Positions 15,962 to 31,081 of a DNA stretch of 64,000 nucleotides are shown one piece after another (within the stretch, counting starts at the first letter, position 1; the number at the start of each line of letters is the position of its first letter). The notes under the pieces are model-generated. The model had not been told where the DNA came from. It saw only the letters and a program-made list of their open reading frames with translations, and made no database searches. Where the stretch lies: assembly GCF_002201535.1 (NCBI RefSeq), contig NZ_NIWW01000008.1:1-64000 (forward strand), in the 5' to 3' direction. The position numbers and the translations under genes were made by a program. The DNA comes from Lacimicrobium sp. SS2-24. GTDB taxonomy: Bacteria; Pseudomonadota; Gammaproteobacteria; Enterobacterales; Alteromonadaceae.

Positions 15962-16366
15962 ATGCAAAAGAGAAGGGTTTCAGGTTTCACGCTCGTTGAA
16001 CTGTTGATTGTGATTGTCATCATAGGGTTGCTCGGATCTTTAGTTGCTCCCGAAATGTTCTCGAAAGTGGGTTCTTCTAAACAAAGTACGGCAAAAGCAC
16101 AAATGCAGATGTTTGAAACATCCCTGGATACCTATTATCTGGATGTGGGAACTTACCCACAGTCGCTCAACGAGTTATGGCGCTCAGATAAAGACGGATG
16201 GGATGGTCCTTATGTTCGTAAAGAACTGCCAAATGATCCCTGGGGTAACGCATACCAATTAGAGGTGCCAGGGCCCAATGGTATGCAGTATCGTATTCGC
16301 TCACTGGGTAGAGATGGACAACCTGGTGGCGAGGGTGAAGATGCAGATATAGAAGTAGGTCGATGA
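15962..16366 (+). CDS. gspG: Major pseudopilin, GspG-like
   Basis: The main subunit of a type II secretion pseudopilus. The prepilin signal is short and basic (MQKRRVSG), cut before FTLVELLIVIVIIGLLGSLV with the conserved Glu at +5. The C-terminal half has the GspG hallmarks WGNAYQ and a Gly/Asp-rich calcium-site region. The 134-residue length is typical. Its GAGGT ribosome site is seven bases before ATG. It leads an eleven-gene run in which nearly every neighbour overlaps, and overlaps gspE by ATGA. Confidence 0.92.
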   Translation: MQKRRVSGFTLVELLIVIVIIGLLGSLVAPEMFSKVGSSKQSTAKAQMQMFETSLDTYYLDVGTYPQSLNELWRSDKDGWDGPYVRKELPNDPWGNAYQLEVPGPNGMQYRIRSLGRDGQPGGEGEDADIEVGR

Positions 16367-18021
16367 GCATAGAATCGCTATTGAATACCGAATTCAGTGT
16401 ATCGCAGGTAGATATAGATAAAGCGAAAGCTTACCAAAAGAAGTTTGGTGGTCGCCTCGAGAAGTTGTTAGTAAACATAGGCAGCTTGGCGGAGGAGCAA
16501 TTAGTTGATGTTTATGCCAGCCTACTGTCTTTGCCTAAGTTATCTCAGGATGAACTGGAACAGGTTGAATTTGATTTTGAAAGTGAGAATATCGACCTTG
16601 AGCTGTTAATGAGAGCTAACTGGGTCCCCATTGGCGAAAAAGGAAATACCTGGCACTTTGTTACTGACGATCCTCTAGCCTGGGAACCAAATCAACAGTT
16701 GGTTCGCAAAAGCATCAACTTTGAGCTTAGTCTAGCGAGCAAAGCCGATATTGATAGATTGCTGAGTGAGTTCAGGGCCTCTGCTCAAACCCGGGAACAA
16801 CAAGAGTCAGTACTATCAGAGTTCGAAGAAGACAAGTTACGAGAATTAGCGACAGAAGCACCCACTGTTAATTTATTGAACAGCTTAATAGCAAAGGCTG
16901 TCCGTGTTGGAGCTTCTGATATGCATTTAGAGCCCGTAGAAGGCCGTTATCAAGTTCGTTACCGTGTTGATGGTGTGTTAAAAAAAGAAGAACACCTGCC
17001 AGTGTCTTTGCAGTTGGCTGTAATATCGCGCATTAAAATTTTATCAAACATGGATATTGCTGAGAAGCGACGCCCCCAGGATGGTAAAATAGAAACCCGA
17101 ATCTCAAATACAGAGCTCGATATTCGAGTGTCATGCTTGCCTTTAGCTAAAGGCGAAAGTGTAGTCATGCGTTTTTTGCGCAAAGACGCTATTCGATACG
17201 ACATAGATACCTTAGGTATTGCACCTGATATCAGAAAACACATAGAAAAAGACTTGCGCACAACTGCGGGAGTTATTCTGCTAACGGGGCCAACTGGTAG
17301 CGGTAAAACTACGAGTTTGTATACGTTTCTTAATGAACTAAATAATGATGCTGTAAAAATCATCACTCTCGAAGATCCTGTTGAGTATCAATTAGAGGGC
17401 GTCAATCAGGTCCAGGTTAAGCCGGAAATTGGCTTTGATTTTGCAGCAGGTCTGCGCAGCATCGTAAGACAAGACCCCGATATTATTATGTTGGGTGAGA
17501 TTCGTGATAAGGAAACGGCTCAGATAGCTATGCAGTCTGCACTGACTGGGCACCTTGTCTTTAGTACTGTGCATACCAATGACGCACCTAGTGCCTATAC
17601 TCGATTGATTGATTTGGGGGTGGAGGAGTTTTTGCTTAACGCTGCAATCGTTTCTGTTATAGCTCAACGTCTTGTTCGAAAGTTATGTACTGAATGTTCT
17701 GAGCCTGTGGTAGATGCTGAAGCAACTATAAGGCGTTACCAGCTAGATAAACTGGCAAGCACTCTAGAGCAAAAGCCTCAATTAAAAGAAGCCCAAGGAT
17801 GCAGTGCCTGCGGCCACACTGGCTATAAAGGGCGCTTAGCCATACTCGAATATTTGCGCTGCGATGATGATATTCGGGCTTTGCATAAGAATGAGTATTT
17901 TATTCCTGAAGCCAGAAAACTCAACCGAGAGAAAGGTGGGCGTGTATTGCTTGAAGATGGCATGTTAAAAGCTCTCAAGGGAGAAACTACTATTGCGGAA
18001 GTGCTGAGGGTTTGTGCTTGA
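16363..18021 (+). CDS. gspE: Type II secretion ATPase, GspE-like
   Basis: Cytoplasmic hexameric ATPase powering pseudopilus assembly. An N-terminal domain (about 1-150) precedes the ATPase core with Walker A GPTGSGKTT at 309-317, the Asp box around ITLEDPVEYQL, Walker B IIMLGEIRD and the His box HLVFSTVHTNDAPSA. A zinc-binding tetracysteine is present: C445, C448, C480 and C483. At 552 residues it is a normal length for GspE/PilB. Its stop overlaps the next start in TGATG. Confidence 0.95.
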   Translation: MSIESLLNTEFSVSQVDIDKAKAYQKKFGGRLEKLLVNIGSLAEEQLVDVYASLLSLPKLSQDELEQVEFDFESENIDLELLMRANWVPIGEKGNTWHFVTDDPLAWEPNQQLVRKSINFELSLASKADIDRLLSEFRASAQTREQQESVLSEFEEDKLRELATEAPTVNLLNSLIAKAVRVGASDMHLEPVEGRYQVRYRVDGVLKKEEHLPVSLQLAVISRIKILSNMDIAEKRRPQDGKIETRISNTELDIRVSCLPLAKGESVVMRFLRKDAIRYDIDTLGIAPDIRKHIEKDLRTTAGVILLTGPTGSGKTTSLYTFLNELNNDAVKIITLEDPVEYQLEGVNQVQVKPEIGFDFAAGLRSIVRQDPDIIMLGEIRDKETAQIAMQSALTGHLVFSTVHTNDAPSAYTRLIDLGVEEFLLNAAIVSVIAQRLVRKLCTECSEPVVDAEATIRRYQLDKLASTLEQKPQLKEAQGCSACGHTGYKGRLAILEYLRCDDDIRALHKNEYFIPEARKLNREKGGRVLLEDGMLKALKGETTIAEVLRVCA

Positions 18022-19223
18022 TGAGCCAATTTCGCTTTACTGCCTATGATAGCGCTGGTATAAAACTCTCAGATACCATTGAGGCAGAGTCTCTCGATGT
18101 TGCCAAAAATACGCTGAAAAAAAAGGGATTATTGGTATCTGATATTAAACCACTGAACAGTGGTTGGAAGGATATTCGTATTATTCAGGAAAAAGTTACC
18201 CTGGATGATTTAGAGTTTCTCACCTCAGAACTATCCATACTCCTTGCCAGCGGTGTCAAAATTGATAAAGCACTGACAATTATCTCAAAAAACAAAGCAA
18301 GCGGCGCGATGAGCCGGCTTATTAGCGATATCTTAAGCGAGATCAAAAAGGGCCGGCCCTTGGCTGAAGCTTTCGAGGTCGGAAAGTCCATCTTTGACCC
18401 ACTTTATTTTAACTTGATCAGAATTGGAGAAGCGACCGGTCGTTTACCTCAAGTATTTGAGGGGCTTGCCAATGATCTTAAGTTTAGAAAAGAGCTCAAA
18501 GCCAAAATCATTCAGGCGGTAACCTATCCAGCCGTAATTTTATTTGTATGTGTGCTCTGTATCCTTTTTGTATTCAATTACATCGTACCGCAGATGGGTA
18601 GCATATTTGCTGGGTCCGATGATATTCCTGTTTACACCGCCTTTTTATTGGGGGCCAGTGATTGGATGATACGGTATCAGTGGTTTCTCTTTGGCGGGCT
18701 CGCGTTAGGCATCGGGGTACTTTATAGCTCAAGGAAGAACCCCGATGTCGCCGCTCGTCTTGCTGACTTTGCGGTCAGTGCACCACTGATTTCGTCTGTT
18801 GTTATACAAACCGAGAGAATCCGTTTTAATTCTGCGATGTCCCTAATGCTTGAAGCTGGAGTGAATGTTGATAATGCAATTGGGTATGCTGCGAATAGTA
18901 TCAAGAACCCAAGAATCAGAAAAAGTTTAACAGTAGCTAAGGAACGTATAAAAAAAGGTGCGGGTATTACTTCCTCTTTGTCGGCCACTCCCATTTTCAC
19001 CTCTTTTTACTTGTCTTTATTAGAAGTCGGAGAGGAGAGTGGTCGAATGCAATCGGTATTCGATGAAATTTCAAGACGCTCAAAAACGGAGTTTGAAAAC
19101 TGGACGACGCGCATTACCAGCATGTTAGAGCCAGTGTTGATTCTGGTTATGGGAGGAATCGTGGGAAGCGTTGTAGTAACTATGCTCCTTAGCGTTGTAT
19201 CGGTCAATGATGTCGGTATCTAG
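18021..19223 (+). CDS. gspF: Type II secretion inner-membrane platform protein, GspF-like
   Basis: The polytopic platform protein that meets the ATPase and drives pseudopilin insertion. The 400 residues contain two T2SF domains, the first around residues 60-185 and the second around 260-385, each ending near a membrane helix; three hydrophobic helices are visible (AVILFVCVLCILFVFNYI, the WFLFGGLALGIGVLY segment and the C-terminal VLILVMGGIVGSVVVTMLL). ATG 18021 in the TGATG overlap is preferred to the TTG at 18012 inside gspE. Confidence 0.94.
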   Translation: MSQFRFTAYDSAGIKLSDTIEAESLDVAKNTLKKKGLLVSDIKPLNSGWKDIRIIQEKVTLDDLEFLTSELSILLASGVKIDKALTIISKNKASGAMSRLISDILSEIKKGRPLAEAFEVGKSIFDPLYFNLIRIGEATGRLPQVFEGLANDLKFRKELKAKIIQAVTYPAVILFVCVLCILFVFNYIVPQMGSIFAGSDDIPVYTAFLLGASDWMIRYQWFLFGGLALGIGVLYSSRKNPDVAARLADFAVSAPLISSVVIQTERIRFNSAMSLMLEAGVNVDNAIGYAANSIKNPRIRKSLTVAKERIKKGAGITSSLSATPIFTSFYLSLLEVGEESGRMQSVFDEISRRSKTEFENWTTRITSMLEPVLILVMGGIVGSVVVTMLLSVVSVNDVGI

Positions 19224-19614
19224 AAACGGCTTTACTTTGATTGAGTTGTTGGTGGTAATCACCATTATGATGACAGTAATGGGGCTTGTGGGCGGTTTAA
19301 CCGTAGATATGTTGGATAAGTACAAGGTTAAATCTGAACAGAAGCAAGTTTTTGCCATTTTAAATGCCTTATCTCAACGAGCTTTTGTGTTGGAGAGAAC
19401 CTATCGTGTGCAATTTGCTGATTCAATGCTGATTGGCTTGGATGAACAGAGTAATCAGCCGGTTATTGAACAGTCTTTTGAAAGTATTCGTTTCCCGAAG
19501 CAAAGCATTAGCCTAAATCGACAGGGGTTACCTTCTCAGGAAAGCCTCTTCATAAGGGTAGAGGGGGAGTCGAAAAGGCTTTCGCTTGACGGGGTTTTAC
19601 GTGCAACGCCCTAA
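19207..19614 (+). CDS. gspH: Minor pseudopilin, GspH-like
   Basis: A minor pseudopilin of the secretion pseudopilus tip. The prepilin motif is SRNG/FTLIELLVVITIMMTV, with Glu at +5. The remainder (135 residues in all) is short and beta-rich, as in GspH. Starts at ATG 19207 and ATG 19210 are both possible; a TTG at 19195 would only lengthen the leader. The start lies inside the gspF 3' end, so translation is probably coupled. Confidence 0.82.
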   Translation: MMSVSRNGFTLIELLVVITIMMTVMGLVGGLTVDMLDKYKVKSEQKQVFAILNALSQRAFVLERTYRVQFADSMLIGLDEQSNQPVIEQSFESIRFPKQSISLNRQGLPSQESLFIRVEGESKRLSLDGVLRATP

Positions 19615-20017
19615 AGGTTTTACGCTGCTGGAAGTGCTTGTCGCGGGAGTTATCCTTTTTATGGCAATAAGCTCAGCCGCAATAGTTTACTCCAGTGCTC
19701 TAAAAAGTAGTGAGAGTGCTACCAGAGCGGTCATCAGCGCAAGCCAGTTATCCATGCTGATGACTCACATTCAGTCTCAACTTCGCCGAGTTGATAGCCT
19801 TGTTGACAAAAAAGGTCAGGGATACTTATTAGGTAACTCATATCACTGGGTTGCAAGAGTGCAAGAGAGGGCTAAGCCGACACCTGTGTATTCGGGGCCT
19901 GAAGAAGGATTCTCAATACCACCTAAGGACATTATACTTTGGTCGGTGTCATTGAATGTTGAAGCAGAAAGCAACAGCAGAGACTTTCAGTTCTTTGTGA
20001 CAGGTTGGACATCATGA
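19601..20017 (+). CDS. gspI: Minor pseudopilin, GspI-like
   Basis: A minor pseudopilin with leader MQRPKG before FTLLEVLVAGVILFMAISS, and the conserved Glu at +5. GTG 19601 gives a compact basic leader and follows GGGG by six bases; TTG 19586 is an alternative. The 138-residue length and the place between H-like and J-like genes support the assignment. It overlaps both neighbours. Confidence 0.8.
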   Translation: MQRPKGFTLLEVLVAGVILFMAISSAAIVYSSALKSSESATRAVISASQLSMLMTHIQSQLRRVDSLVDKKGQGYLLGNSYHWVARVQERAKPTPVYSGPEEGFSIPPKDIILWSVSLNVEAESNSRDFQFFVTGWTS

Positions 20018-20709
20018 CACGCCACAGAGATTACGGTTTTTCACTAATTGAGTTGTTGGTTGCATTAACGTTGCTCACCCTAATTATTTTTATTGGGAGC
20101 TATGGATATCAGACGTTCTCCAGATATTGGGGCGATGAGCTGGGAGATTTTGGTGCTTCATACGGTAAATCCAGAGGGCTGACGATTGTTGTTGAGGCTA
20201 TAAAGGGAATTAAACCCTATCTTGTCGTAGAGAACCAGCAGCCCTATTTTTATTTTGAAGGTGGGGAGAGTGTTTTTCGAGCTGTACGGGCAAAAGGGGT
20301 GACCACTGACGGTCCAGCTATATTCGAAATTAGGGCGTACAGAGAACAAGGAGTTGATAGCCTATCTCTTCAGTATTCAGAGCTGCCGCTCAGTCGAGAA
20401 AACTTTCAGCAACCGGATAAATGGCGTCAGTTTAGTTATCAAATTACCATTCTTGATGGGCTGGAAGAGTTTAATCTTCAGTATTTTGGGTGGGCTCACT
20501 TCAATGACTTTGCCGAAGAAGATGGTGAAGGCGAAGGATCAGTTCGCTCGCCTGAGTGGTACGGTTTTTACAGCGGGAAAGATACCTGGATTACACCAAT
20601 GAAAATGAAGATGGCTATTCGCTTTGAGGAACATGTCAACGAATTAGAGGTGCCAATCAAAACAATTCGTGAAGATCTGATTGCTTATCATTTGGTGGGT
20701 GACGAATGA
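20014..20709 (+). CDS. gspJ: Minor pseudopilin, GspJ-like
   Basis: The larger minor pseudopilin that, with I and K, caps the pseudopilus. The leader MTRHRDYG precedes FSLIELLVALTLLTLIIFIG. The 231-residue body contains the aromatic beta-strand pattern of GspJ (QFSYQITILDGLEEFNLQYFG). ATG 20014 sits in an ATGA overlap with the gspI stop and is preferred to TTG 20005. It overlaps gspK by ATGA. Confidence 0.83.
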   Translation: MTRHRDYGFSLIELLVALTLLTLIIFIGSYGYQTFSRYWGDELGDFGASYGKSRGLTIVVEAIKGIKPYLVVENQQPYFYFEGGESVFRAVRAKGVTTDGPAIFEIRAYREQGVDSLSLQYSELPLSRENFQQPDKWRQFSYQITILDGLEEFNLQYFGWAHFNDFAEEDGEGEGSVRSPEWYGFYSGKDTWITPMKMKMAIRFEEHVNELEVPIKTIREDLIAYHLVGDE

Positions 20710-21533
20710 AAGTTATGTTAAGGCAAACTGGCGTTGCTCTGATACAGGTTTTATTAATTACAGGGCTGATTTTATTGCTGGTTATTCAGATCAGTAAAGA
20801 TGCCAGGCATCAAGTGACGACCGCACAACTCTGGCAAGATCGGGTTAAGGCAGAGTTGGCACTGAATAACGCTCAGGAACGGTTATTGTTTGGATTATTG
20901 ACGCAAGAGCGACTGCAAACGACTGACACTGAGCTTACACGGTTGTGGAATTTCCATGGCGCCCCTTTTGAACCACTCTCTGCAGATAATGCCAAATTGC
21001 AAGTTACTGTCCAGGATATGGCTGGGTTAGCATCTCTGACCTATTCAACCGACTTAGTGTCTAAACTGATGCTGGCCGAGGGGTACAGTTTATCTGAGGC
21101 CCAGGAAGCCATAGACCTGTTAGAAGACTGGCAGGGTTTGCAAGCAAAGCGAAACTCACGAGGACCAATTCAATTTAGGCAAGAGTTAGACTTTATCAAG
21201 GCAGGGCTTTCCGATGTTCTTTCTGAGGAACTAACGACATATCATCCTGTCAGCTACTTTAACCCTGGAACAGCCCCAAATCCTTTGTTGGCACTTATGC
21301 TCACCGATGATAGTCTTGACAGCGTTCTGGAGAGGCGTCAGAAGGGCACTATAACAGCGCGGGAACTCATGGTGAATCTTACCCCCTCTATTGATGATGA
21401 AGTAAGCGATTATCCAAGTGAAATGCTCCGGCTGACACTTTCCAGTCAGGTCGGAGAGACACAGTTGGAGCGGTCTTTTATGGTCCGCTTACAACCAGAA
21501 AAGTCAGATCCGATAATATTTTTGAGCGAGTAA
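20706..21533 (+). CDS. gspK: Minor pseudopilin, GspK-like
   Basis: The tip pseudopilin. The leader RQTG precedes VALIQVLLITGLILLLVIQI; as usual for GspK the +5 Glu is absent. A helical insertion with the GspK pattern follows (VQDMAGLASLTY, then EAIDLLEDWQGLQ, and PISFRQELDFI-like GPIQFRQELDFIKAG). The 275-residue length is somewhat short for the family. It overlaps gspJ by ATGA and is followed two bases later by gspL. Confidence 0.82.
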   Translation: MKVMLRQTGVALIQVLLITGLILLLVIQISKDARHQVTTAQLWQDRVKAELALNNAQERLLFGLLTQERLQTTDTELTRLWNFHGAPFEPLSADNAKLQVTVQDMAGLASLTYSTDLVSKLMLAEGYSLSEAQEAIDLLEDWQGLQAKRNSRGPIQFRQELDFIKAGLSDVLSEELTTYHPVSYFNPGTAPNPLLALMLTDDSLDSVLERRQKGTITARELMVNLTPSIDDEVSDYPSEMLRLTLSSQVGETQLERSFMVRLQPEKSDPIIFLSE

Positions 21534-21535
21534 TA

Positions 21536-22645
21536 ATGCAACTTAAATGGATTAAAACGTTATTTTCAAATAACTGTTTTTTTTATTGCGAAGAAGTCTA
21601 CAAGCTCTCTAAAGAGGGATTTGAGCTAACCGAAGAAGGTGCTCTGGATAATAGCCATTTTCCTTGCTTAATCATTGGTCGTGAACATTACACGGAGCAG
21701 GTACAGCAGTTCCCGGTTAAAGACAAAAAAGAACTTGAACGGCTAATTTCCCACAGTATGGAAGGCCCATACCTGTATGCAATAGAAGAACGGGGTGATG
21801 CCAGTACCAAGGTAGTGATTTGGTCTGTTGACAAAAGTTTTTTTGAACGCTTTGGCAATAAGTTGATGATATGGATCCCGGAGAGCTTTTTCTTTAATGG
21901 TGTTATCGAGTCACAGCTAATCAGAGCACAACGTCCTCATCGGGAATTATTTATAGCTACAGGAAGTAGCATGAGGACTGTCCCGTCTGAAGGGTTGTAC
22001 AAAAATCCGGATTACTTTCTATTGTCTATAGGGATTGCCGAAGAGGGCATTCAGCACGTTAACATGGCCCAGCCAGAATACGCCCAATTTATTAGACGTA
22101 AGCTTGGTGATTTCGGTATTGTTGAATGGCTTCAGATTCTATCCAGGCAGGGTTACTCAGAAAAGCTCTGGAGTTTGGCCTCTTGGCGCAGTGTCTTTGC
22201 AGGAGCTGTGTTAGCATTTGTTTTACTCAACGGTATCAATTTTTTCTTCCTCAAATATCAAAACACATCAATTGATAATGCGATCGAAGAGTTAGATGTC
22301 AGACATGCTATCGAGCTGAGAAATGCAGTATCGAAAAAAAATCAGTTACTTGCCTCATTGAGTCAGGTGGCAAGTTCAGCAGCAAGTGAGGAGACGTTAT
22401 GGCATATGTTACTGACTTGTATGGATGCTGGTGCAGATGTCCAATTTGTCAGGTCTACGCCTGAAGAACTGGAAGTCAGATTTGAAGCAGATAAAGCCAC
22501 AGATATATTGTCTTTGTTAAGACAGCATTCTGGTGTTGAAAATGCTGAATTTTCAACACCAGTCCGTGAAAGTGTTGGTCGCGAGCGGTTCACTATTTCA
22601 ATGACGCTTAGCGCGGTGGGACCGAGTCAGGGAGACGCAACATGA
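21536..22645 (+). CDS. gspL: GspL-like inner-membrane secretion protein
   Basis: In type II systems GspL anchors the ATPase to the membrane through a cytoplasmic actin-like domain and a periplasmic ferredoxin-like domain. Here residues 1-215 are cytoplasmic, one membrane helix lies near 220-240 (VFAGAVLAFVLLNGINFFFL), and a coiled coil plus small periplasmic domain follow, giving 369 residues. Sequence similarity to textbook GspL is weak by eye, so the call rests on topology and gene order. It could equally be described as PilN-like. Confidence 0.65.
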   Translation: MQLKWIKTLFSNNCFFYCEEVYKLSKEGFELTEEGALDNSHFPCLIIGREHYTEQVQQFPVKDKKELERLISHSMEGPYLYAIEERGDASTKVVIWSVDKSFFERFGNKLMIWIPESFFFNGVIESQLIRAQRPHRELFIATGSSMRTVPSEGLYKNPDYFLLSIGIAEEGIQHVNMAQPEYAQFIRRKLGDFGIVEWLQILSRQGYSEKLWSLASWRSVFAGAVLAFVLLNGINFFFLKYQNTSIDNAIEELDVRHAIELRNAVSKKNQLLASLSQVASSAASEETLWHMLLTCMDAGADVQFVRSTPEELEVRFEADKATDILSLLRQHSGVENAEFSTPVRESVGRERFTISMTLSAVGPSQGDAT

Positions 22646-23190
22646 GCAGGCAGATTACTTTAACCGCTGTTGTTGCTGCCTTAGTGATGGTTAAGTTTGT
22701 TTATCTTCCTTTTCAGGAGGAGTTAGCATCTCTGCGCAATGAACTGACACAAAAACACGAGCGATTAAGTAAGAAAGAGGCTATTGCTGAGGCGCTCCCT
22801 TTATGGCAAGAGCAAGATGAGAAACTAAATCACGAATTAAGCAAGCTGGAAGATGTTTTTCCCAATTATCCTGATGCGGGAATGGCTAAACTGCAGTTTC
22901 AACTTACGTTACAAAAACTGGCACGTGAGCAGGATATGCGTCTAGACAGTGTCGAGTGGCTCGCTATTAGTCCAGGGCAGCCAGAGAGTGCCGTGGTTAG
23001 TGTGAGTTTTGAAGGTAAGTTTACTGATTTGGCAAGGTTTCACTTAGCATTAGCCGAAGTCGGGCCTTGGTTAGCTGTAGATAATTTAGACTTCAGGGTT
23101 AGGGAGCAAAAAATGAAGTGGAAGCGCCCAGGCACAGCTCGGGGAGAGATTTTGCTCAAAATCTATTACATCGTGGGAGGCGGAGTGTGA
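22642..23190 (+). CDS. gspM: GspM/PilO-like inner-membrane secretion protein
   Basis: A 182-residue bitopic protein with an N-terminal membrane helix (ITLTAVVAALVMVKFVYL), a coiled coil at about 25-70 and a small ferredoxin-like periplasmic domain, the plan shared by GspM and PilO. It overlaps gspL by ATGA and the next gene by GTGA. The assignment depends on topology and position between L-like and C-like genes. Confidence 0.65.
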   Translation: MSRQITLTAVVAALVMVKFVYLPFQEELASLRNELTQKHERLSKKEAIAEALPLWQEQDEKLNHELSKLEDVFPNYPDAGMAKLQFQLTLQKLAREQDMRLDSVEWLAISPGQPESAVVSVSFEGKFTDLARFHLALAEVGPWLAVDNLDFRVREQKMKWKRPGTARGEILLKIYYIVGGGV

Positions 23191-23735
23191 TCAAGCTGGG
23201 TTCAGGCTGGAACATCCGCCACCTTTTGTATGGAGTCGCAGTCGTAACAGGGGGGTGGAGTATCGCCCAATTGACCACTTTCAGATCATTCGAGGCTTCG
23301 CAAGAGGAACATTCTGTTGAAGTGGTGGAGTTGGAAGTCAGTCAACTTCAGCACAAAAAAGATTTTAATGCTGTATTGTCACGGTTAGAGAGCCTGGATC
23401 CTCGTGAAGATAATGAACAAGTGAAACAGAACGAAGAGCAAGGCCAGGCTGCCTCCTCAGATAATGAGGTCGTGACCGTTGATAAAACGCTGAAACCACG
23501 TTTTCAGCAAATTGACGATAATTATCAGGTGGGACTGACAGGACTTTTTGATGACAGCAGACCCTTTGCTGTGCTTGAACGCATTAATTTTGTGTCGAAG
23601 CAATCAGAATACGTCAGATTGAATATCGGTGAACGCATTGGTAAATATGAATTGCTGAGTATTACTGAGACAAGCGCCACGCTTGTATCTGAAAATGACA
23701 GAATTACGCTGCGGCTATTTAAGCGGGAGCAATGA
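23187..23735 (+). CDS. gspC: GspC/PilP-like periplasmic linker protein
   Basis: GspC connects the inner-membrane platform to the secretin through its homology region. The 182-residue protein has one N-terminal membrane helix (LLYGVAVVTGGWSIAQL), an acidic Gln-rich linker to about residue 90 and a C-terminal small beta domain (LNIGERIGKYELLSITETSA) like the HR domain. GTG 23187 follows GGAGGCGGAGT and overlaps the gspM stop in GTGA; an upstream start at 23118 lies inside gspM. No PDZ domain is present. Confidence 0.65.
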   Translation: MIKLGSGWNIRHLLYGVAVVTGGWSIAQLTTFRSFEASQEEHSVEVVELEVSQLQHKKDFNAVLSRLESLDPREDNEQVKQNEEQGQAASSDNEVVTVDKTLKPRFQQIDDNYQVGLTGLFDDSRPFAVLERINFVSKQSEYVRLNIGERIGKYELLSITETSATLVSENDRITLRLFKREQ

Positions 23736-23757
23736 ATAAATAATGAAGGACTGTGCA

Positions 23758-25818
23758 GTGAAACATGTTTGTATCTTTCTCGGTTTGGTATTGGCGTTAA
23801 GCGGTTGTGCAACCACAAAGGAATCCTCTCAGCAGGGTAAAGATGAGCGTTTTACATATAAGATCAAACGCTCGTACCTTGAAGGTTCAACTGACAAGAC
23901 TTTACCCGAAGATATTGAGAACAGCGAAATAGAAGGTCGCCCACCTTATGAGCCTTTGCAGCCTATAGCGCAGAATGCCCAAAAGGAACGTAAAGCAAAT
24001 ACGCTCGCTCGTGAGTTTAGTGACTCCGAAAAGGTTACTATTGCAGCAGATAAAATGCCGCTGACCGAATTTTTGCATTATGCTTTTGGCGAAATCCTGG
24101 CAAAGAACTATGTGTTGGCACCTGATCTCAAAGGGAACAAAACCCCGGTGACCCTTAATGTCTCTAACGCCATCAGTAAAAGAGAACTGTTTCGATTAGT
24201 CGCTAATGTGTTAGATAATCAGCAGGTTTCAATAGACTATAGTGGTGATGTTTTCTTTTTTCAGGCTGCGGCGTTAGGAAAAGCAAAGGCGACTATAGGG
24301 ATAGGTCGAACCATAGAAAGTGTTCCATCCGTTGCGGGACAAATCCTGCAAGTCATCCCTCTTAAATATGGCATTCGGATCAGTATGGAGCGCACCATCA
24401 GAGAGCTTATCGAGGCTGATATCCGCTCTGATTACGAGCAAAGTACCTTATTTGTAATGGGAGATCGTAACAACATTCTAAGGGCTATTGAACTCGTACA
24501 AATGTTGGATGTTCCTGCTAATCGAGGTAAACATATAGGGCTAATCTCTCTGACTTATATACCACTTGAGGAGTTTGTAACTCAGACTCAAACGTTGATG
24601 AAGAATGAAGGGCTCGATGTGGGTATTGCGGATGGGCAAAACAAGAATATAGCCTTGGTTACTCTTAACCATATTGGAGCCGCAGCTGTGTTTGCGACCT
24701 CAGAGGAATTGTTGAATCGTGTGCGATACTGGGCCTCGGTTCTTGACAAGCCAACTCGTGGAGACAATGAACAGTATTTTGTCTATCACCCGCGTTTCGC
24801 ACGGGCAACAGACTTGGGTGATAGTGTGGGAAGGTTGATTTCTCTGAGTGGGGGACGCTCTCAAGAGCGTGTTCAGCGAAACAATCAATCCACCGGCGAA
24901 AATGCCGACCAGCTGGCAAACGAATCAGTTCGTTCCAATAGAGTGATTTCCGCCAGTAATATTTCTTTTGTTGTGGATGAGCGCAGTAACTCCCTGATTT
25001 TTAAAACATCAGGCTCTCAATACCAGGCATTGATGCCACTATTGGAGCGACTGGACGTGTTACCTAAGCAAGTACTGCTGGAGGTGCTCATCGCTGAGGT
25101 GACAATGAGTGATGACTTTAAGTTCGGCGTTGAATTTGCACTGAGAAATAGCAGTCGCTTTGCTTTGACTACCAAAGGGGCGTTCAGCGCAGGTGAAACC
25201 GGAGGACTGAATTTGAGTTTTCTGGATGGCGGAACTGAGGCAGTTGCGTCTTTCTTTAAAGAAAATAAGTTCATAAATGTGCTGTCTAACCCCTCCATGC
25301 TCGTGAGAGATGGTGTGTCCGCAAATATTAGCGTGGGTACAGATATTCCTGTTGTAGGGGGCACTGTGTCTCAGGATGGTGGCAATGTGACGACCAATAT
25401 TGTTTACCGTAAGACCGGGGTGGATGTGGCGGTAACGCCCACTATTAATGCACAGGGGGTTGTTATCATGAATATAAAGCAGCAGATCAGTAACACCGTT
25501 GACACCACTGCTGGAAGTGGAGGCTCGCCTTCAATCTTTGAGCGCTCTTTGGACACTGAAGTGGTCGTGGAAAGTGGCCGTACCGTATTATTAGGTGGAC
25601 TTATCAGCGAAGATGTCTCAAATGGTGAGATCAAAGTGCCGGGATTTGGGGATCTTCCTTTTATCGGTAACTTATTTAAAGAGCGCAATGACTCTAAGAC
25701 AAAAACTGAGCTGGTGATGTTGGTTACGCCAAGAGTTATTGAGCGTAACGACGATTGGGAAAAGCTGATGATGGATTTTCAGAACGGACTTGAAAATATA
25801 CGTATACCCTTAAACTGA
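23758..25818 (+). CDS. gspD: Type II secretin with lipoprotein signal, GspD-like
   Basis: The outer-membrane secretin that forms the exit channel. The first residues give a lipoprotein signal (VKHVCIFLGLVLALSGC), so the protein should be acylated at Cys and could reach the outer membrane without a separate pilotin, as HxcQ does. N0 and N1-N3 ring domains occupy about residues 90-430 and the secretin core about 430-680 (VLLEVLIAEVTMSD, VGTDIPVVGG, VVVESGRTVLLGGLI). GTG 23758 is preferred because AAGGA lies seven bases upstream; ATG 23743 is also possible and keeps the lipobox. Confidence 0.93.
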   Translation: MKHVCIFLGLVLALSGCATTKESSQQGKDERFTYKIKRSYLEGSTDKTLPEDIENSEIEGRPPYEPLQPIAQNAQKERKANTLAREFSDSEKVTIAADKMPLTEFLHYAFGEILAKNYVLAPDLKGNKTPVTLNVSNAISKRELFRLVANVLDNQQVSIDYSGDVFFFQAAALGKAKATIGIGRTIESVPSVAGQILQVIPLKYGIRISMERTIRELIEADIRSDYEQSTLFVMGDRNNILRAIELVQMLDVPANRGKHIGLISLTYIPLEEFVTQTQTLMKNEGLDVGIADGQNKNIALVTLNHIGAAAVFATSEELLNRVRYWASVLDKPTRGDNEQYFVYHPRFARATDLGDSVGRLISLSGGRSQERVQRNNQSTGENADQLANESVRSNRVISASNISFVVDERSNSLIFKTSGSQYQALMPLLERLDVLPKQVLLEVLIAEVTMSDDFKFGVEFALRNSSRFALTTKGAFSAGETGGLNLSFLDGGTEAVASFFKENKFINVLSNPSMLVRDGVSANISVGTDIPVVGGTVSQDGGNVTTNIVYRKTGVDVAVTPTINAQGVVIMNIKQQISNTVDTTAGSGGSPSIFERSLDTEVVVESGRTVLLGGLISEDVSNGEIKVPGFGDLPFIGNLFKERNDSKTKTELVMLVTPRVIERNDDWEKLMMDFQNGLENIRIPLN

Positions 25819-25903
25819 TAATTATTTGATAGGGATTTTTAGTTTAAACGTATATAATATAAGCAATAGGCAGGCGTAAGTAGGCTTTTTATTTTTCTAA
25901 GTG

Positions 25904-25931
25904 TTGACAGATACTTATGCTTCATTAAGAA
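25904..25931 (+). promoter_or_regulatory. Promoter of the candidate surface-protein gene
   Basis: A perfect TTGACA (25904-25909) is followed after 16 bases by TAAGAA (25926-25931). Transcription would begin near 25938, giving a leader of about 120 bases. A strong promoter of its own would allow this gene to be expressed well above the secretion genes upstream. Confidence 0.6.
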
Positions 25932-25950
25932 TTAGCTTTGGTAAGAGGCC

Positions 25951-26047
25951 CTCCATAGATGGAGAGCTTCTACTTTAAACCTAGCTAGTAAAGGAACTAG
26001 GAACGGAATATAACGATATCGTTATATTCCCAATTTCATGAAATTGG
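25951..26047 (+). promoter_or_regulatory. Structured leader with two adjoining perfect palindromes
   Basis: Three inverted repeats lie in the leader: CTCCAT-AG-ATGGAG at 25951-25964; a perfect 26-base palindrome at 26005-26030 (half-site GGAATATAACGAT); and a perfect 18-base palindrome CCAATTTCATGAAATTGG at 26030-26047. The last contains the first bases of the ribosome site GGAGA (26046-26050), so in RNA it could hide or expose translation initiation, or protect a long-lived message. Binding by a dimeric regulator to the DNA palindromes is the alternative. Confidence 0.7.
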
Positions 26048-26057
26048 AGAATAAGAA

Positions 26058-27374
26058 ATGAAATCTATTCTTAAGAAGACTCTTATCGCCGCTGCAGTGG
26101 CGAGTGCGGCTTCTGCGAATGCTGCGAACATTACCGGAACCACGTCTGGCGTAGATACTGATGTTGATTGGCAACTCGTTTCAGCCGAAGGTCTGGCGAT
26201 CGCAGAAACTATTACCCTGGGTAGTGGAGCAGGTGAGATTGGAGTGAACTTCGAGACTGAGAAGTCTTACAACGAGAACGATGTGTTGCTGCTAACCTTT
26301 GCAGGCGCAGAGATCGACTCAGTTGACGAAGCTGCTCTGGAAGCGGTGCTGACTGACGGTATTGGTTCGTTCGATGTGCTGGAAGTGGGTACTAACAGTA
26401 TCACTTTGCGTCCTGTGGATGACAACGGCGTAACTGCAACTGATTTCGGTATTCTTGAAGGGATTACCCTGAAAGCGTTCGACGGTGCAGTAACACTGGC
26501 GTCTGTTGGTCAGACTCTGCAAGGCTTTGATATCGATTCTGGTACAGCTACACCAATCGCTCAGGCAGTTTCTGAGTTTGATGTGAGTGTTGCTACAGCT
26601 CTTGATGCCACCATTGACGTTGAAGAAGAGCGTAAGCAGTTCCTGAGCGGAACTACTGATGCGTTCTCAATCACAGTAACACAGGAGGCCGACCTGCTGG
26701 GTGTAACGGGTAGTAGTGTCGCTCTGGATGTTACTGCTGCTAGCACCATGGACTTCCTGTTGGATGGTGACGGTGAGCTGAGCAGTGACTACTACACTGT
26801 AACGGGTGTAACTGAAACAGCTGACAGTGCGCTCAGTGGTACGACTTTGTCAGTTGAGTCTTCAGACTTCGCTGGTACGTTCGGTATCACGTTCGATTCT
26901 CTGGGTTCTGCTGATGAAGATGCAAACCAATTGGTTGCTCAGAGCTTCTCTGGTGATCTGACAGTAAATTATGCGCTGGGCGGTACTACCGGTTCTGTTG
27001 ATGCGTCTGGTCTGAGCCTCGGTGCCTGGGATCTGAGCGGTGCAACCGTAAATATTCCTTACATGCCTTATGGCTCAGGTATCAGCCAAATCATCTACGT
27101 ATCTAACGACGGATCCGTAACTGGTGACATCGAGCTGACTGCATTTGATGACGCTGGAAATGAATACGGTCCAGTAATGTTGGATACTGCTGCTGAAGCG
27201 AACAAAATCACTGCGTTGAGCAGTTCAATTCGTCTCGCTCTGGAAGCAGAAGGGTACGATGGCAGCTCTAAGAAGATGGATATTACCCTGGTAATTAATT
27301 CTCCATCTGGTCAGATTGAAGTATTCAGCGCGTACAATGTACGTGGTGATCGTCTGTACACACCTGTTCAGTAA
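26058..27374 (+). CDS. Abundant secreted surface protein, candidate S-layer protein
   Basis: A 438-residue secreted protein with a Sec signal (KKTLIAAAVASAASANA, cleavage near residue 22), no cysteine, few basic residues and a composition rich in Thr, Ser, Gly, Asp, Ala and Val with alternating hydrophobic residues, indicating a beta-rich fold. These are general traits of S-layer proteins, and size and style recall the Slr4 S-layer family of marine Gammaproteobacteria; this is a resemblance by eye only. No PEP-CTERM or other sorting tail is present. Its own promoter, structured leader, uniform codon choice and strong terminator point to high expression. It directly follows the secretion cluster, which may export it. 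Confidence 0.6.
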   Translation: MKSILKKTLIAAAVASAASANAANITGTTSGVDTDVDWQLVSAEGLAIAETITLGSGAGEIGVNFETEKSYNENDVLLLTFAGAEIDSVDEAALEAVLTDGIGSFDVLEVGTNSITLRPVDDNGVTATDFGILEGITLKAFDGAVTLASVGQTLQGFDIDSGTATPIAQAVSEFDVSVATALDATIDVEEERKQFLSGTTDAFSITVTQEADLLGVTGSSVALDVTAASTMDFLLDGDGELSSDYYTVTGVTETADSALSGTTLSVESSDFAGTFGITFDSLGSADEDANQLVAQSFSGDLTVNYALGGTTGSVDASGLSLGAWDLSGATVNIPYMPYGSGISQIIYVSNDGSVTGDIELTAFDDAGNEYGPVMLDTAAEANKITALSSSIRLALEAEGYDGSSKKMDITLVINSPSGQIEVFSAYNVRGDRLYTPVQ

Positions 27375-27392
27375 TTTTTACTGACTGAATAG

Positions 27393-27422
27393 AAAAGCGA
27401 GCCTCTGGCTCGCTTTTTTTTT
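27393..27422 (+). terminator. Strong intrinsic terminator
   Basis: An 11-bp perfect stem (AAAAGCGAGCC and GGCTCGCTTTT) with a three-base loop TCT, running into nine or more T residues, lies 19 bases after the stop of the candidate surface-protein gene. Confidence 0.95.
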
Positions 27423-27551
27423 GCACTGCAGTGAGAACATAGAAGTTCTTCATCACTATCAGGTGGTTATATCGTAAAAAGTGCTTGCCTCTGAGGCGGC
27501 TTTCGAAATAGCATTTTCCCGTTTTTCTGACATTTACTTATGGAGGTAAGC

Positions 27552-29174
27552 TTGAACGCTCGTGCTGTTCATTGGTTATTTGTTTTTATGGTGTCAACGC
27601 TTTTTGCGTGCGCGTATTATCCGGCTTTAAGCGTGCCTTTTTATCTTGATGACTTTGAGTCAATTGTTAATAACCCCATCATTAATACACTTGATTGGAA
27701 CTTGCTTCACCGCTACTTTCCCATGCGTGAGCTTGGCTATTTTAGTTTTGCACTCAATCAAGCTATATGGGGAGAATCTATTATTGCTTTTCATGCCGTG
27801 AACCTGGTTCTCCACGCGCTTGTAGGCGTCGCCCTGGGGTTCTTGAGCCGCGACTTGATGCTGTGCGCAGGAAAGAGCAGACAAGACGCGCTGCGCGTAG
27901 GTTTAATTGCTGCAGGTATTTTTCTGCTATTGCCCCTGAATACTCAGGCTGTAACGTATGTGGTTCAGCGGCTGGCAGTGATGGCTGCATTGTTCTATTT
28001 GCTGGGTCTTTGGGCTTATTTAAGAGCCAGGCAAGCCTCAACCCTACAGGGTATAGTTGGTTATGGTTTACTTGTTATAGCGGCTTTTGTTGCGGGAATG
28101 CTGACAAAACAGAATATAATTACGTTGCCGGCTGCGGTTCTGTTGCTTGAGGTAGCGTTGCTAAACTCCCGCCTTAAGGTAGTCGTAAAACCACTTTTGG
28201 TTCTTGCACTTGTAACGTTGATTTTTTTGGTCATTGTGCCCTCTGAGGGGCGGCTGGAGACGCTGGACAGCGCTCTTAGGTTGGACTCTGAACTACCGAG
28301 AGTGGATTATTTCGGCCATCAATTGGTCGTTATGTGGCTTTATATTTATAAGTTTTTTGTACCTCACCCCTTATTGTTGGAATATTCAGTTTCCCCCTAT
28401 AGCTGGGGAGACTATCAGGTGTGGTTGGCGGCATTGGGTCATATGTCTGTTTTGGCCATTGTTTGGCAAATGCTCAATCGCGCTCCTTTAGTTGCCTGTT
28501 TAATATTGCTTTATTACCTGGCACACAGCGTTGAGTCAATGTTGGTTGTCTTACCGGATTTGGCTTTTGAACATCGTAGTTACTTACCCAATGCATTTTT
28601 AGTGACGTTGCTATCTGTGGGTTTAATGAAGCTGTTCCAATTGAAGGCGAGAGTGGCAGTCATATTAATTCTGCTTATTTTTACCTCGGCGAGCTATTTT
28701 ACTTATGCTCGCAACGTACTGTGGACAAAGCCAGTAGCGTTCTATCGTCATGAGTTAACCTACACAGCTGATAATTCGAGAACTTACGGAGCGCTTGGCG
28801 CATTATATGCGCGCCGGGACAATATGGCGCAAGCTCAAAAATGGCTGCGAATTGCAATAAAAGTGGGAGCTGATACTGGGCATCTGCAGGCAGCGACTAT
28901 TATTTCATACATGAACGCATTGTATGAAAACGGGAATGCAGAGCGCGCTAAGCACGTGGGTGTGATGGCGCTGAAGGCGGTGACCAGAAATAAGGACAAA
29001 GCAGCGATATTGGCCAATATCGCGAGAATCTATATAAATGACGGGCGCTGCGACTTTGCGATGGGAATGTTAGAGCGTGCCCAGCGGTTAGATAAAACTA
29101 ATGCGCTGACAATATCACTAAAGGAAGGGTGTTCTGATGGCCACATTAATACAGGCTCTGTCAACTCACAGTAA
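27552..29174 (+). CDS. GT-C membrane glycosyltransferase with TPR tail (TMTC/GT105-like)
   Basis: A 540-residue protein with about ten membrane helices followed by a C-terminal TPR-like helical domain from about residue 400 (TYGALGALYARRDNMAQAQKWLRIA). The early loop holds the acidic pair D33/D34 in FYLDDFESIVNNP and then FHAVNLVLHA, the pattern of GT-C enzymes with TPR repeats that use polyprenyl-phosphate sugars to O-glycosylate proteins. GGAGGT at 27542-27547 is the ribosome site of TTG 27552; the ATG at 27540 overlaps that site and is rejected. Placed after the candidate surface protein, it may glycosylate it. Confidence 0.7.
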   Translation: MNARAVHWLFVFMVSTLFACAYYPALSVPFYLDDFESIVNNPIINTLDWNLLHRYFPMRELGYFSFALNQAIWGESIIAFHAVNLVLHALVGVALGFLSRDLMLCAGKSRQDALRVGLIAAGIFLLLPLNTQAVTYVVQRLAVMAALFYLLGLWAYLRARQASTLQGIVGYGLLVIAAFVAGMLTKQNIITLPAAVLLLEVALLNSRLKVVVKPLLVLALVTLIFLVIVPSEGRLETLDSALRLDSELPRVDYFGHQLVVMWLYIYKFFVPHPLLLEYSVSPYSWGDYQVWLAALGHMSVLAIVWQMLNRAPLVACLILLYYLAHSVESMLVVLPDLAFEHRSYLPNAFLVTLLSVGLMKLFQLKARVAVILILLIFTSASYFTYARNVLWTKPVAFYRHELTYTADNSRTYGALGALYARRDNMAQAQKWLRIAIKVGADTGHLQAATIISYMNALYENGNAERAKHVGVMALKAVTRNKDKAAILANIARIYINDGRCDFAMGMLERAQRLDKTNALTISLKEGCSDGHINTGSVNSQ

Positions 29175-29999: not shown

Positions 30000-31079
30000 A
30001 TGGATAAAACGTTTTTAATTACCGGGGGAGCCGGCTTTATTGGTTCAGCTGTGGTCAGGGAACTGATAAATAACACAACTCACCAAGTAATTAACGTAGA
30101 TAAATTGACCTATGCAGGTAACCTGGAATCATTGGCCTCCATTGAGAGTAATCCAAGGTATACCTTTGAGCAAATTGATATTTGCGATGCCATTGGCATA
30201 AAGTCGGTTTTGGATACTCATCAACCGGATGTGATCATGCATCTGGCAGCCGAGAGCCATGTGGACCGCTCTATTGATGGTCCTGCGGCGTTTATCGAAA
30301 CCAACATACTAGGGACGTACATTTTATTGGAGGAGGCCAGGAAGTATTGGCTGGCGCTGAAAGAGAGCCGGACCGATAAGGCTGAAGAGTTTCGCTTTCA
30401 TCATATTTCTACCGATGAAGTCTATGGCGATCTGGAAGGTACGGATGACCTGTTTACCGAACATACTGCCTATGCTCCAAGCTCACCCTATTCCGCCAGT
30501 AAAGCCAGCTCTGACCATCTGGTGCGGGCGTGGCAACGTACTTATGGTCTGCCGACACTAGTGAGTAATTGCTCCAACAACTATGGGCCCTACCACTTCC
30601 CCGAGAAGCTAATCCCACTAATGATCCTAAATGCGTTGGATGGCAAACCTTTACCTATTTATGGGGATGGGGCGCAAATTCGCGATTGGCTGTACGTGGA
30701 AGATCACGCCCGGGCTCTTATTAAAGTTGCCTCTCAGGGGCAAGTAGGGCAGACGTATAACATTGGCGGCCATAACGAAAAGCAGAATATTGAAGTGGTT
30801 CAGACGCTTTGTGAACTTCTCGAGGAGCTGCTGCCCGAAAAACCGAAAGGTTTGGCGAAGTACAGAGACCTAATCACCTATGTGGCAGACCGGCCTGGCC
30901 ACGATGTGCGTTATGCCATTGATGCTGGTAAAATTGAGCGGGAGCTCGGTTGGACTCCTGAAGAAACATTTGAGACGGGCATGCGAAAGACCGTGCAATG
31001 GTACTTGGAAAACAAAGAATGGTGGAAGTGTGTACGCTCTCGTGAGTATCAGGGGCAACGATTAGGGAAATTGGATTAA
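30000..31079 (+). CDS. rfbB: dTDP-glucose 4,6-dehydratase
   Basis: RmlB/RfbB turns dTDP-glucose into dTDP-4-keto-6-deoxyglucose, the second step to dTDP-L-rhamnose. The 359-residue short-chain dehydrogenase-type protein shows the NAD site TGGAGFIGS near the start, the catalytic STDEVYGDL and the YSASK motif (Tyr and Lys). Length and motifs are standard. It opens the polysaccharide genes 118 bases after the IS remnant and is followed two bases later by rfbD. Confidence 0.97.
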
Positions 31080-31081
31080 AT

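Follow-up and report, generated by a model that had tools for sequence, protein, structure and literature searches.

Cells that carry a surface layer (S-layer) have to move coat subunits out in very large numbers, and genes for such subunits have been described beside those of type II secretion systems (T2SSs). In Pseudoalteromonas tunicata D2, transmission electron microscopy and deletion of slr4 showed that Slr4 forms the S-layer, reported as a paracrystalline lattice; in the parts of that account drawn on here, slr4 lies directly 3' of a T2SS gene cluster, similar arrangements are reported in other species, and a dedicated T2SS is proposed (Ali et al. 2020, PMC7821379). Excerpts of the AnnoView paper repeat both the pairing and the proposal (PMC11094555). 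The A-layer gene vapA of Aeromonas salmonicida has an adjoining T2SS that is reported to be essential for the S-layer (Noonan and Trust 1995, via excerpts of PMC10765051), and the S-layer protein NpdA of Paracidovorax citrulli is encoded beside 12 gsp genes in a genome with a second gsp cluster (PMC10765051, in excerpt). Here we analyze a 64,000-nucleotide stretch of Lacimicrobium sp. SS2-24 (contig NZ_NIWW01000008.1, positions 1 to 64,000; hereafter, the window), in which a gene for an Slr4-like protein (slr4, 26058-27374) directly follows a T2SS cluster (15962-25818).

The window locus is like that of P. tunicata D2 in the protein family, in the T2SS directly upstream and in the reading of that T2SS as dedicated. 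It is unlike the P. tunicata account in a C-type glycosyltransferase (GT-C) gene, a leader hairpin, a layout with a Dsb gene, a lipoprotein secretin and relatives in the Desulfobacterota, which the excerpts of that account leave unmentioned (PMC7821379). The likeness to the A. salmonicida A-layer (an S-layer protein with an adjacent T2SS cluster) and to NpdA (an S-layer protein by gsp genes, with a second gsp cluster) is one of gene neighborhood, and NpdA differs in being found, according to the excerpts, in beta- and gammaproteobacteria that are mostly terrestrial or aquatic (PMC10765051). Since the pairing of Slr4 with an adjoining T2SS was described for P. tunicata in 2020, together with the proposal that this T2SS is dedicated (PMC7821379, in part), the core of the present account is already known, and the counts given here strengthen that published pairing. 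Seemingly new are the leader element, the changing set of partner enzymes (the Dsb layout among them) and an Slr4-like cargo with the same T2SS order in relatives from the Desulfobacteraceae, which are distant sulfate reducers, no such account being among the literature matches listed.

For Slr4, the claim of a T2SS private to a single substrate still rests on gene order, and a cluster matched to its cargo in a genome with a separate ordinary T2SS would allow a clean test: two secretins, one cargo. We consider it highly probable that the locus encodes an S-layer system of the Slr4 type, with its own terminated slr4 transcript, a private T2SS with a self-piloting secretin, surface assembly and an optional glycosyltransferase partner. 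Slr4 would cross the inner membrane through its Sec signal peptide, fold in the periplasm into immunoglobulin (Ig)-like beta-sandwich domains and be pushed across the outer membrane by its own T2SS, the secretin of which would pilot itself as a lipoprotein. The protein would then assemble into a lattice on the cell surface, probably on polysaccharide made by neighboring genes, and the product of the gene downstream of slr4 would act as the optional partner.

An Slr4 family protein 3' of a T2SS cluster

The protein encoded at 26058-27374 matches Pfam PF19526 with 207.9 bits against a curated cut-off of 25 (E 3.5e-61), and by this profile comparison it is a member of the published Slr4 S-layer family. 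The initial annotation, made from the DNA letters, had suggested that the protein forms a surface layer and had pointed to Slr4; membership of the family supports that suggestion. An AlphaFold2 model built from 51 sequences (predicted local distance difference test, pLDDT, 88.5; predicted template modeling score 0.79) is almost entirely beta and consists of beta-sandwich domains, its best structural matches (Z at most 9.6) being Ig-like domains of integrins, surface adhesins and pilins. The Ig-like arrangement predicted by the model is common and tells no function. RsaA, the published threading template, is absent among the structural matches listed, which excludes nothing, and the best hit in a sequence search for solved relatives of Slr4 (E 0.15) is unrelated.

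The genes called by the initial annotation between 15962 and 29174 were all found at their positions and in the same order, and in the list of open reading frames (ORFs) nearly all of the gsp genes overlap. The cluster and slr4 are made up as follows (HMM, hidden Markov model).

15962..16366, + strand, gspG, major pseudopilin (T2SSG 1.1e-30; TIGR01710 over cut-off)
16363..18021, + strand, gspE, ATPase with an MshEN-type N-terminal domain (T2SSE 2.2e-128; MshEN 2.8e-09)
18012..19223, + strand, gspF (T2SSF 6.3e-50; first start codon TTG, ATG at 18021)
19195..19614, + strand, gspH-like minor pseudopilin (N_methyl over Pfam cut-off; conserved position)
19586..20017, + strand, gspI-like minor pseudopilin (N_methyl just under Pfam cut-off; conserved position)
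20005..20709, + strand, gspJ-like minor pseudopilin (N_methyl over Pfam cut-off; conserved position)
20706..21533, + strand, gspK-like minor pseudopilin (NCBIfam NF037980 2.7e-08, under cut-off)
21536..22645, + strand, gspL-like, marker of the cluster type (no Pfam match; own HMM 348 bits)
22642..23190, + strand, gspM of the Xps type (T2SSM_b over cut-off; NF040576 7.3e-15, 55.1 bits against a cut-off of 60)
23187..23735, + strand, gspC-like, short (position and own family HMM; no Pfam match)
23743..25818, + strand, gspD, secretin with lipobox LSGC (Secretin 6.2e-44)
26058..27374, + strand, slr4, S-layer protein by family, 438 amino acids (aa)

The products of gspG, gspE, gspF, gspM and gspD exceed the Pfam T2SS cut-offs. 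The core parts of a T2SS are present in the cluster, namely the secretin, the ATPase, the platform protein F, the pseudopilins, L, M and C, with L and C recognized by position and our own HMMs only.

Pairing of the cluster with Slr4

Around PF19526 matches, 79 loci were fetched from 75 genomes, drawn as order and family samples; tandem copies share a stretch, and the locus of the window is counted apart. Our own Slr4 profile recovers Slr4 in 78 of these loci, the exception being L125 of genome G476. The exact order G-E-F-H-I-J-K-L-M-C-D-Slr4 is found in 60 of the 79, the cluster gspE in 71, and the conserved cluster spans 36 genera of the samples. The GspL of this cluster type serves as a marker, since its profile scores 348 bits with the window cluster versus 14 bits with the ordinary GspL of the same genome.

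Searches for Slr4 and for GspL each covered 295 family genomes, the two draws agreeing where listed and being taken as the same. With Pfam Slr4 and strong GspL matches (>130 bits), 64 genomes have both, 5 have Slr4 alone, 3 have GspL alone and 223 have neither. Eleven genomes gave middling GspL scores (44-93 bits), and matches below 40 bits were set aside as other families, some match at E 0.001 being present in 173 of the 295. A more distant Slr4-like protein is encoded beside the cluster in 10 of the 11 GspL-positive genomes that lack Pfam Slr4. When distant Slr4 and weaker GspL are included, the counts become 77 with both, 2 with Slr4 only, 1 with GspL only and 215 with neither, so that the cluster GspL is present in 77 of 79 Slr4-like genomes and an Slr4-like gene in 77 of 78 GspL genomes (76 of 78 in both directions if G476 is taken as lacking Slr4). 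The distant-Slr4 step was post hoc and used our own profiles, with G360, G383 and G537 assigned by BLAST grouping and a common C-terminus. An ordinary T2SS with gspC-to-N order is encoded on another contig of the Lacimicrobium genome (G000:C19), and the G-first order of the window cluster is, as the initial annotation had it, different from this usual one. The proposal in that annotation that the cluster is devoted to the 26058 protein is thus strongly supported by co-occurrence, synteny and a separate ordinary T2SS, and it is very likely, on genomic grounds, that the T2SS next to slr4 is the private export machine of Slr4.

Several observations weigh against this assignment. The cluster is absent from 8 of the 79 Slr4 loci. 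Four of these are second Slr4 copies (G313, G350, G325 and G358) in genomes that each have a clustered Slr4 locus elsewhere, two (G352 and G375) have Slr4 at a contig end and the cluster on another contig, and of the remaining two, that of G429 is a fragment and that of G476 is a Pfam match under the cut-off that our own profile missed; the gene 3' of gspD in G476 matches DMFA2_C and not Slr4. In addition, G380 has the cluster without Slr4, Slr4 is unrecognized at the rearranged cluster of a gammaproteobacterial metagenome-assembled genome (MAG; L234), and Slr4 is absent from two of three sampled genomes of the window's genus. The co-occurrence counts come from related genomes and are phylogenetically non-independent, and the excerpts of the two Slr4 papers hold no secretin-mutant or other proof that the cluster T2SS exports Slr4 (PMC7821379, PMC11094555).

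One alternative is that the cluster exports several surface proteins, with Slr4 as only the most abundant client. Extra Slr4 paralogues, in tandem or elsewhere, occur in several genomes, and family f17, proteins of some 195 aa whose N-terminus looks like a signal sequence, is encoded directly 3' of slr4 in 6 loci, both of which would suit a broader clientele. However, no unlabeled neighbor family (the family list being partly identified) matches Slr4 in the number of loci where it has a fixed place beside the cluster, and we regard this alternative as unlikely. It is far less probable still that Slr4 exits through the ordinary T2SS, with the cluster representing either a remnant or a system for type IV filaments. 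Such an arrangement would be compatible with the single prepilin peptidase that is common to both systems, but the near one-to-one co-occurrence of the cluster with Slr4 and the conservation of the cluster across the 36 genera argue strongly against it.

Features of the secretion machine

The initial annotation had remarked that the cluster is without N, O and pilotin genes, and none was recognized in the slr4-linked cluster. The strict lipobox pattern is found in 72 of 84 cluster secretins, that of the window included, although the start of one (L064) is doubtful; of the 12 that miss the pattern, 11 still have a Cys after a hydrophobic run. The ordinary GspD of the same genome has a plain signal-like N-terminus. 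HxcQ is a self-piloting lipoprotein secretin (liposecretin), and it is possible that the cluster secretin likewise pilots itself as a lipoprotein. A lipoprotein secretin would probably explain the absence of a pilotin. A single Peptidase_A24 match was found in the genome, on another contig, and the cluster and the ordinary T2SS must therefore share this prepilin peptidase. Control by cyclic di-GMP through the canonical MshEN motif (RLGxx..Q) was considered and rejected, as the motif occurs in 0 of 88 cluster GspE proteins; among the controls from the same genome, the presumed MshE matches the motif and the ordinary GspE does not.

Xps-type T2SSs have the gene order E-F-G-H-I-J-K-L-M-N-D. The window cluster is like them in that D comes last and in the match of its GspM to the Xps-type NCBIfam model, which falls under the cut-off, and E-F-G... 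orders occur in several distant members of the class. Unlike the Xps systems, the window cluster has G first and a distinct GspL, for which none other of 274 class genomes exceeds 67 bits (0 of 273 other genomes). Weaker GspL matches occur in 27 other class genomes, and the eight loci fetched from among them have E-F-G..., other or partial orders and carry no Slr4 label.

Some loci depart from the usual composition of the cluster. In L111 (G357), only G, E and F remain before Slr4, H to D having been lost naturally at this site. In L083, the interval between gspF and gspH holds two small ORFs of 144 and 142 aa, which may be compared with the HEPN/MNT insertion that excerpts of the AnnoView paper describe for another species (PMC11094555).

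The predicted slr4 transcript and its leader

The elements around slr4 that may set its expression are the following.

25904..25932, + strand, putative promoter-like site 5' of slr4, TTGACA-17-AAGAAT (consensus scan, 10 of 12 bases)
26005..26030, + strand, leader hairpin 1, a 26-nucleotide (nt) perfect palindrome (sequence; stem comparison with swapped controls)
26030..26047, + strand, leader hairpin 2, a perfect palindrome with the core TTTCATGAAA at 26034-26043, meeting the ribosome site GGAG at 26046-26049
27393..27417, + strand, intrinsic terminator 3' of slr4 (sequence and fold)

The initial annotation had given slr4 its own promoter and a strong terminator. The terminator holds up, with 11 pairs, a TCT loop and a T run, and it is visible in the regional fold; the energy of the whole terminator region has a z of -1.55, equaled in 15 of 200 shuffles, and a simple terminator scan did not return the site. 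A promoter-like site is present, but such sites in the slr4 upstream region (24 versus 22.9 in shuffles) show no excess. slr4 would be read as a transcript that ends at its own terminator.

Of the 67 slr4 genes directly 3' of gspD, 58 have the core at most 71 nt 5' of the start codon; the 67 genes come from 67 genomes and 31 genera, and 27 of these genera have the core. It is found in 0 of 20 other Slr4 genes with usable upstream sequence (tandem or remote copies, Dsb layout, inverted layout; one gene counted twice), two of which keep the shorter TTCATGAA. Start codons were set by our own rule, and the count excludes five genes without a recognized start and genes that are cut off or shorter than 350 aa. 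The chance expectation for the core 10-mer is 0.26 occurrences in the entire 64-kb window, and in this genome slr4 is one of three places with the core plus GGA, versus one place for a reversed control pattern.

Base pairs were counted in 58 of 64 distinct leaders that were aligned; L060, L106, L119, L133, L165 and L173 were left out, and because four of these six lack the core, the count leans toward conservation. The hairpin 2 pair that adjoins the core is formed in 58 of 58 leaders and varies in kind (GC 33, AU 22, UA 2, GU 1), the three inner pairs are almost invariant, and the outermost pair is unpaired in 24 of 58. The covariation score of hairpin 2 is 0.244 versus 0.128 when shuffled and at most 0.116 when slid. 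An adjoining upstream stem exceeds partner-swapped controls in length (mean 7.0 versus 5.7, 56 leaders, p 2e-7), a p value that is optimistic because the loci are related. Symmetric change is expected of an RNA hairpin and of a DNA operator alike, and covariation is therefore compatible with action at either level. A conserved upstream ORF from an AUG in the leader palindrome is unlikely, the three frames giving 24, 15 and 19 of 58. Rfam gave no match at the gathering threshold between 12000 and 32000, and the literature matches listed include no relevant S-layer leader hairpin.

We tentatively propose, with confidence just short of even for the proposal as a whole, that the two-hairpin leader of the slr4 mRNA, with the core UUUCAUGAAA of its second hairpin directly 5' of the ribosome site, sets the very high output of the S-layer protein through RNA stability, translation or a dedicated regulator; that the leader, Slr4, a private T2SS with a self-piloting secretin and an exchangeable enzyme (GT-C, Dsb or sulfotransferase) make up a modular S-layer cassette; and that the core of T2SS plus cargo also exists in the Desulfobacterota. 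If the leader element controls output, it would help to explain the production of coat protein in such quantity.

A putative glycosyltransferase and other possible partner enzymes

The gene 3' of slr4 is the candidate for the optional partner (TPR, tetratricopeptide repeat).

27540..29174, + strand, GT-C/TPR-like membrane protein, 544 aa, candidate protein glycosyltransferase (aligned family, TPR-like C-terminus)

The initial annotation had named this product a GT-C/TPR enzyme. TPR-like repeats are indeed present at the C-terminus, under the Pfam cut-off, while a curated glycosyltransferase family was not matched, Pfam and NCBIfam searches at E 0.1 returning only sub-threshold matches, mostly to TPR. 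The family alignment has invariant DD and EHR residues, which we take to be significant for GT-C enzymes. In the structural model (pLDDT 72) the membrane part is weak, the Foldseek matches listed are mostly TPR or other helical-repeat proteins, and the best hit in a sequence search for solved relatives (E 0.074) is unrelated.

The GT-C/TPR-like gene is the next gene 3' of slr4 on the same strand, at a distance of 15-292 nt, in the window and in 14 of the 79 loci (10 genera). Two further loci (L061 and L085) have a weaker relative on the opposite strand, at about 293 bits with the full-length profile, that the search with the membrane part did not return. Strong homologues of the membrane part (>340 bits) are present in 20 of 295 genomes, 16 of which are Slr4-positive (Fisher p 4e-8); with five weak homologues added, 17 of 25 are in Slr4 genomes (p 8e-7). 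No strong match is present in 53 of 69 Slr4 genomes, and one of the four Slr4-negative genomes with a strong homologue (G380) still carries the T2SS cluster. As judged from these genomes, the link of the GT-C/TPR-like gene to slr4 is real but optional. A glycosylation signature in the composition of GT-adjacent Slr4 proteins was sought and rejected (Ser plus Thr 21.2 versus 20.1 percent, p 0.09); these proteins are slightly poorer in N-X-S/T (p 0.049), and the 17 proteins compared include those of the doubtful loci L061 and L085.

An alternative reading is that the GT-C/TPR-like protein belongs to the neighboring polysaccharide locus, as a polymerase, a ligase or an enzyme of glycan modification, and is unrelated to Slr4. 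Polysaccharide genes flank the locus, a terminator separates slr4 from the GT-C/TPR-like gene, 4 of the 20 strong homologues are in genomes without Pfam Slr4, and in two Slr4 genomes slr4 and the homologue are about 25 kb (G318) and 71 kb (G322) apart; the lack of a compositional signature in Slr4 points the same way. Against this stand the position of the gene immediately 3' of slr4 in 10 genera and the concentration of strong homologues in Slr4 genomes. We regard the alternative as a real possibility, somewhat below an even chance. The claim of the initial annotation that Slr4 is glycosylated is therefore upheld as far as the above-chance link between the two genes goes, and is not borne out by composition or by the majority of Slr4 genomes. 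In the minority of species with the GT-C/TPR-like gene, its product may add sugars to Slr4 or to a surface glycan that is exported together with Slr4.

A DsbA-like thioredoxin-fold protein with a CPFC motif is encoded beside Slr4 in 11 genomes of 7 genera, 9 of which have the order Slr4-Dsb-G-E-F... The protein in L170 matches Pfam Thioredoxin_4 and DSBA.

L165-L176 except L173 (example L170:17400-18218), DsbA-like gene beside Cys-bearing Slr4, mostly between Slr4 and gspG

The 12 Slr4 proteins of at least 350 aa measured in this layout have 2 to 5 Cys each, two genes being counted twice from loci fetched twice and some being cut at locus ends; a 339-aa piece with one Cys (L174) was dropped. 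The window Slr4 has 0 Cys in 438 aa, as the initial annotation had noted. A Cys-free cargo as a general trait was rejected: only 33 of 83 Slr4-like proteins of at least 350 aa from loci without a Dsb gene lack Cys, and the other 50 carry Cys without a DsbA-like gene, the counts being raw, with some ORF starts too long and some Cys inside signal peptides. The DsbA-like enzyme fits its Cys-bearing cargo, as expected of a dedicated system, but the occurrences probably go back to few events. Cargo-matched enzymes of this kind could reveal S-layer modification in marine bacteria.

A TPR-sulfotransferase family (f13; identified by Pfam for L078, at L078:14501-16240) is present in 8 slr4 loci, and is possibly another cargo- or glycan-modifying partner.

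Relatives outside the Gammaproteobacteria

Slr4 is reported in one phylum in the excerpts of the P. tunicata account (PMC7821379). A wider scan gave at least 476 GspD relatives, of which the 80 best were kept. Among these, a Desulfobacteraceae MAG (L252) has E-F-H-I-J-K-L-M-C-D in the same order as the window, followed by a gene for a 487-aa secreted protein rich in Ala, Gly, Ser, Thr and Val. A search with the L252 GspD at E 1e-60 matched 11 of 116 genomes of that order, and of the four looked at, the cassette is present in G566 and G663 and absent from G578, the contig of G644 being too short for a decision. L294 is a second copy in the genome of L252, on a contig that starts inside gspD, and in L295 (G663) the genes from E to D keep the order and are followed by one for a Wzy_C protein and then by that for the cargo.

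The L294 and L295 cargo proteins score 46.8 and 68.5 bits with our own Slr4 profile (bias terms, about 42 bits), and no match to Pfam Slr4 was found for the Desulfobacterota cargo at E 0.1. The L252 cargo taken alone is weak as an Slr4-like protein (10.6 bits with a bias of 31.7, against 3.7 for the best of 1000 shuffles; 3.4 percent probability by hhalign) and was not accepted on that basis. Aligned together, the three cargo proteins match 298 columns of the Slr4 profile with a probability of 97.5 percent (P 6.7e-12), and the Slr4-like identity of the L252 cargo depends on its alignment with the other two. Contamination of the MAG is possible. On a Nitrospirae contig (L254), which ends after gspD, the genes run in order from G to D, and G567:C9 has no such cluster. 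Nothing relevant on an S-layer T2SS in Desulfobacter is among the literature matches listed.

Wzy_C-type or other large membrane proteins are encoded beside the cargo in two of L252, L294 and L295. A 633-634-aa membrane protein without a clear Pfam family is encoded 3' of the cargo in L294 and L295.

Neighboring genes

The locus is flanked on both sides by genes for surface polysaccharide.

13150..15891, + strand, multi-SLBB polysaccharide export protein, Wza-like (Pfam SLBB, SLBB_2, Poly_export), 5' of the cluster
30000..31969, + strand, presumed rfbB and rfbD, start of the adjoining polysaccharide locus (ORFs)

The names rfbB and rfbD, like the rest of the downstream polysaccharide locus, are our assumption, and genes 5' of the cluster resemble what we take to be flagellar and chemotaxis genes. 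In 42 of 65 loci, SLBB and/or WecA-like (family f0) genes lie at most two genes 5' of gspG, so that surface-polysaccharide loci are a frequent setting of the S-layer cluster.

In L065, L069, L087, L095, L096 and L119, a single T2SS cluster is accompanied by additional Slr4 paralogues, in tandem or nearby. The f17 proteins encoded directly 3' of slr4 (for example, at L093:4808-5449) have no Pfam match.

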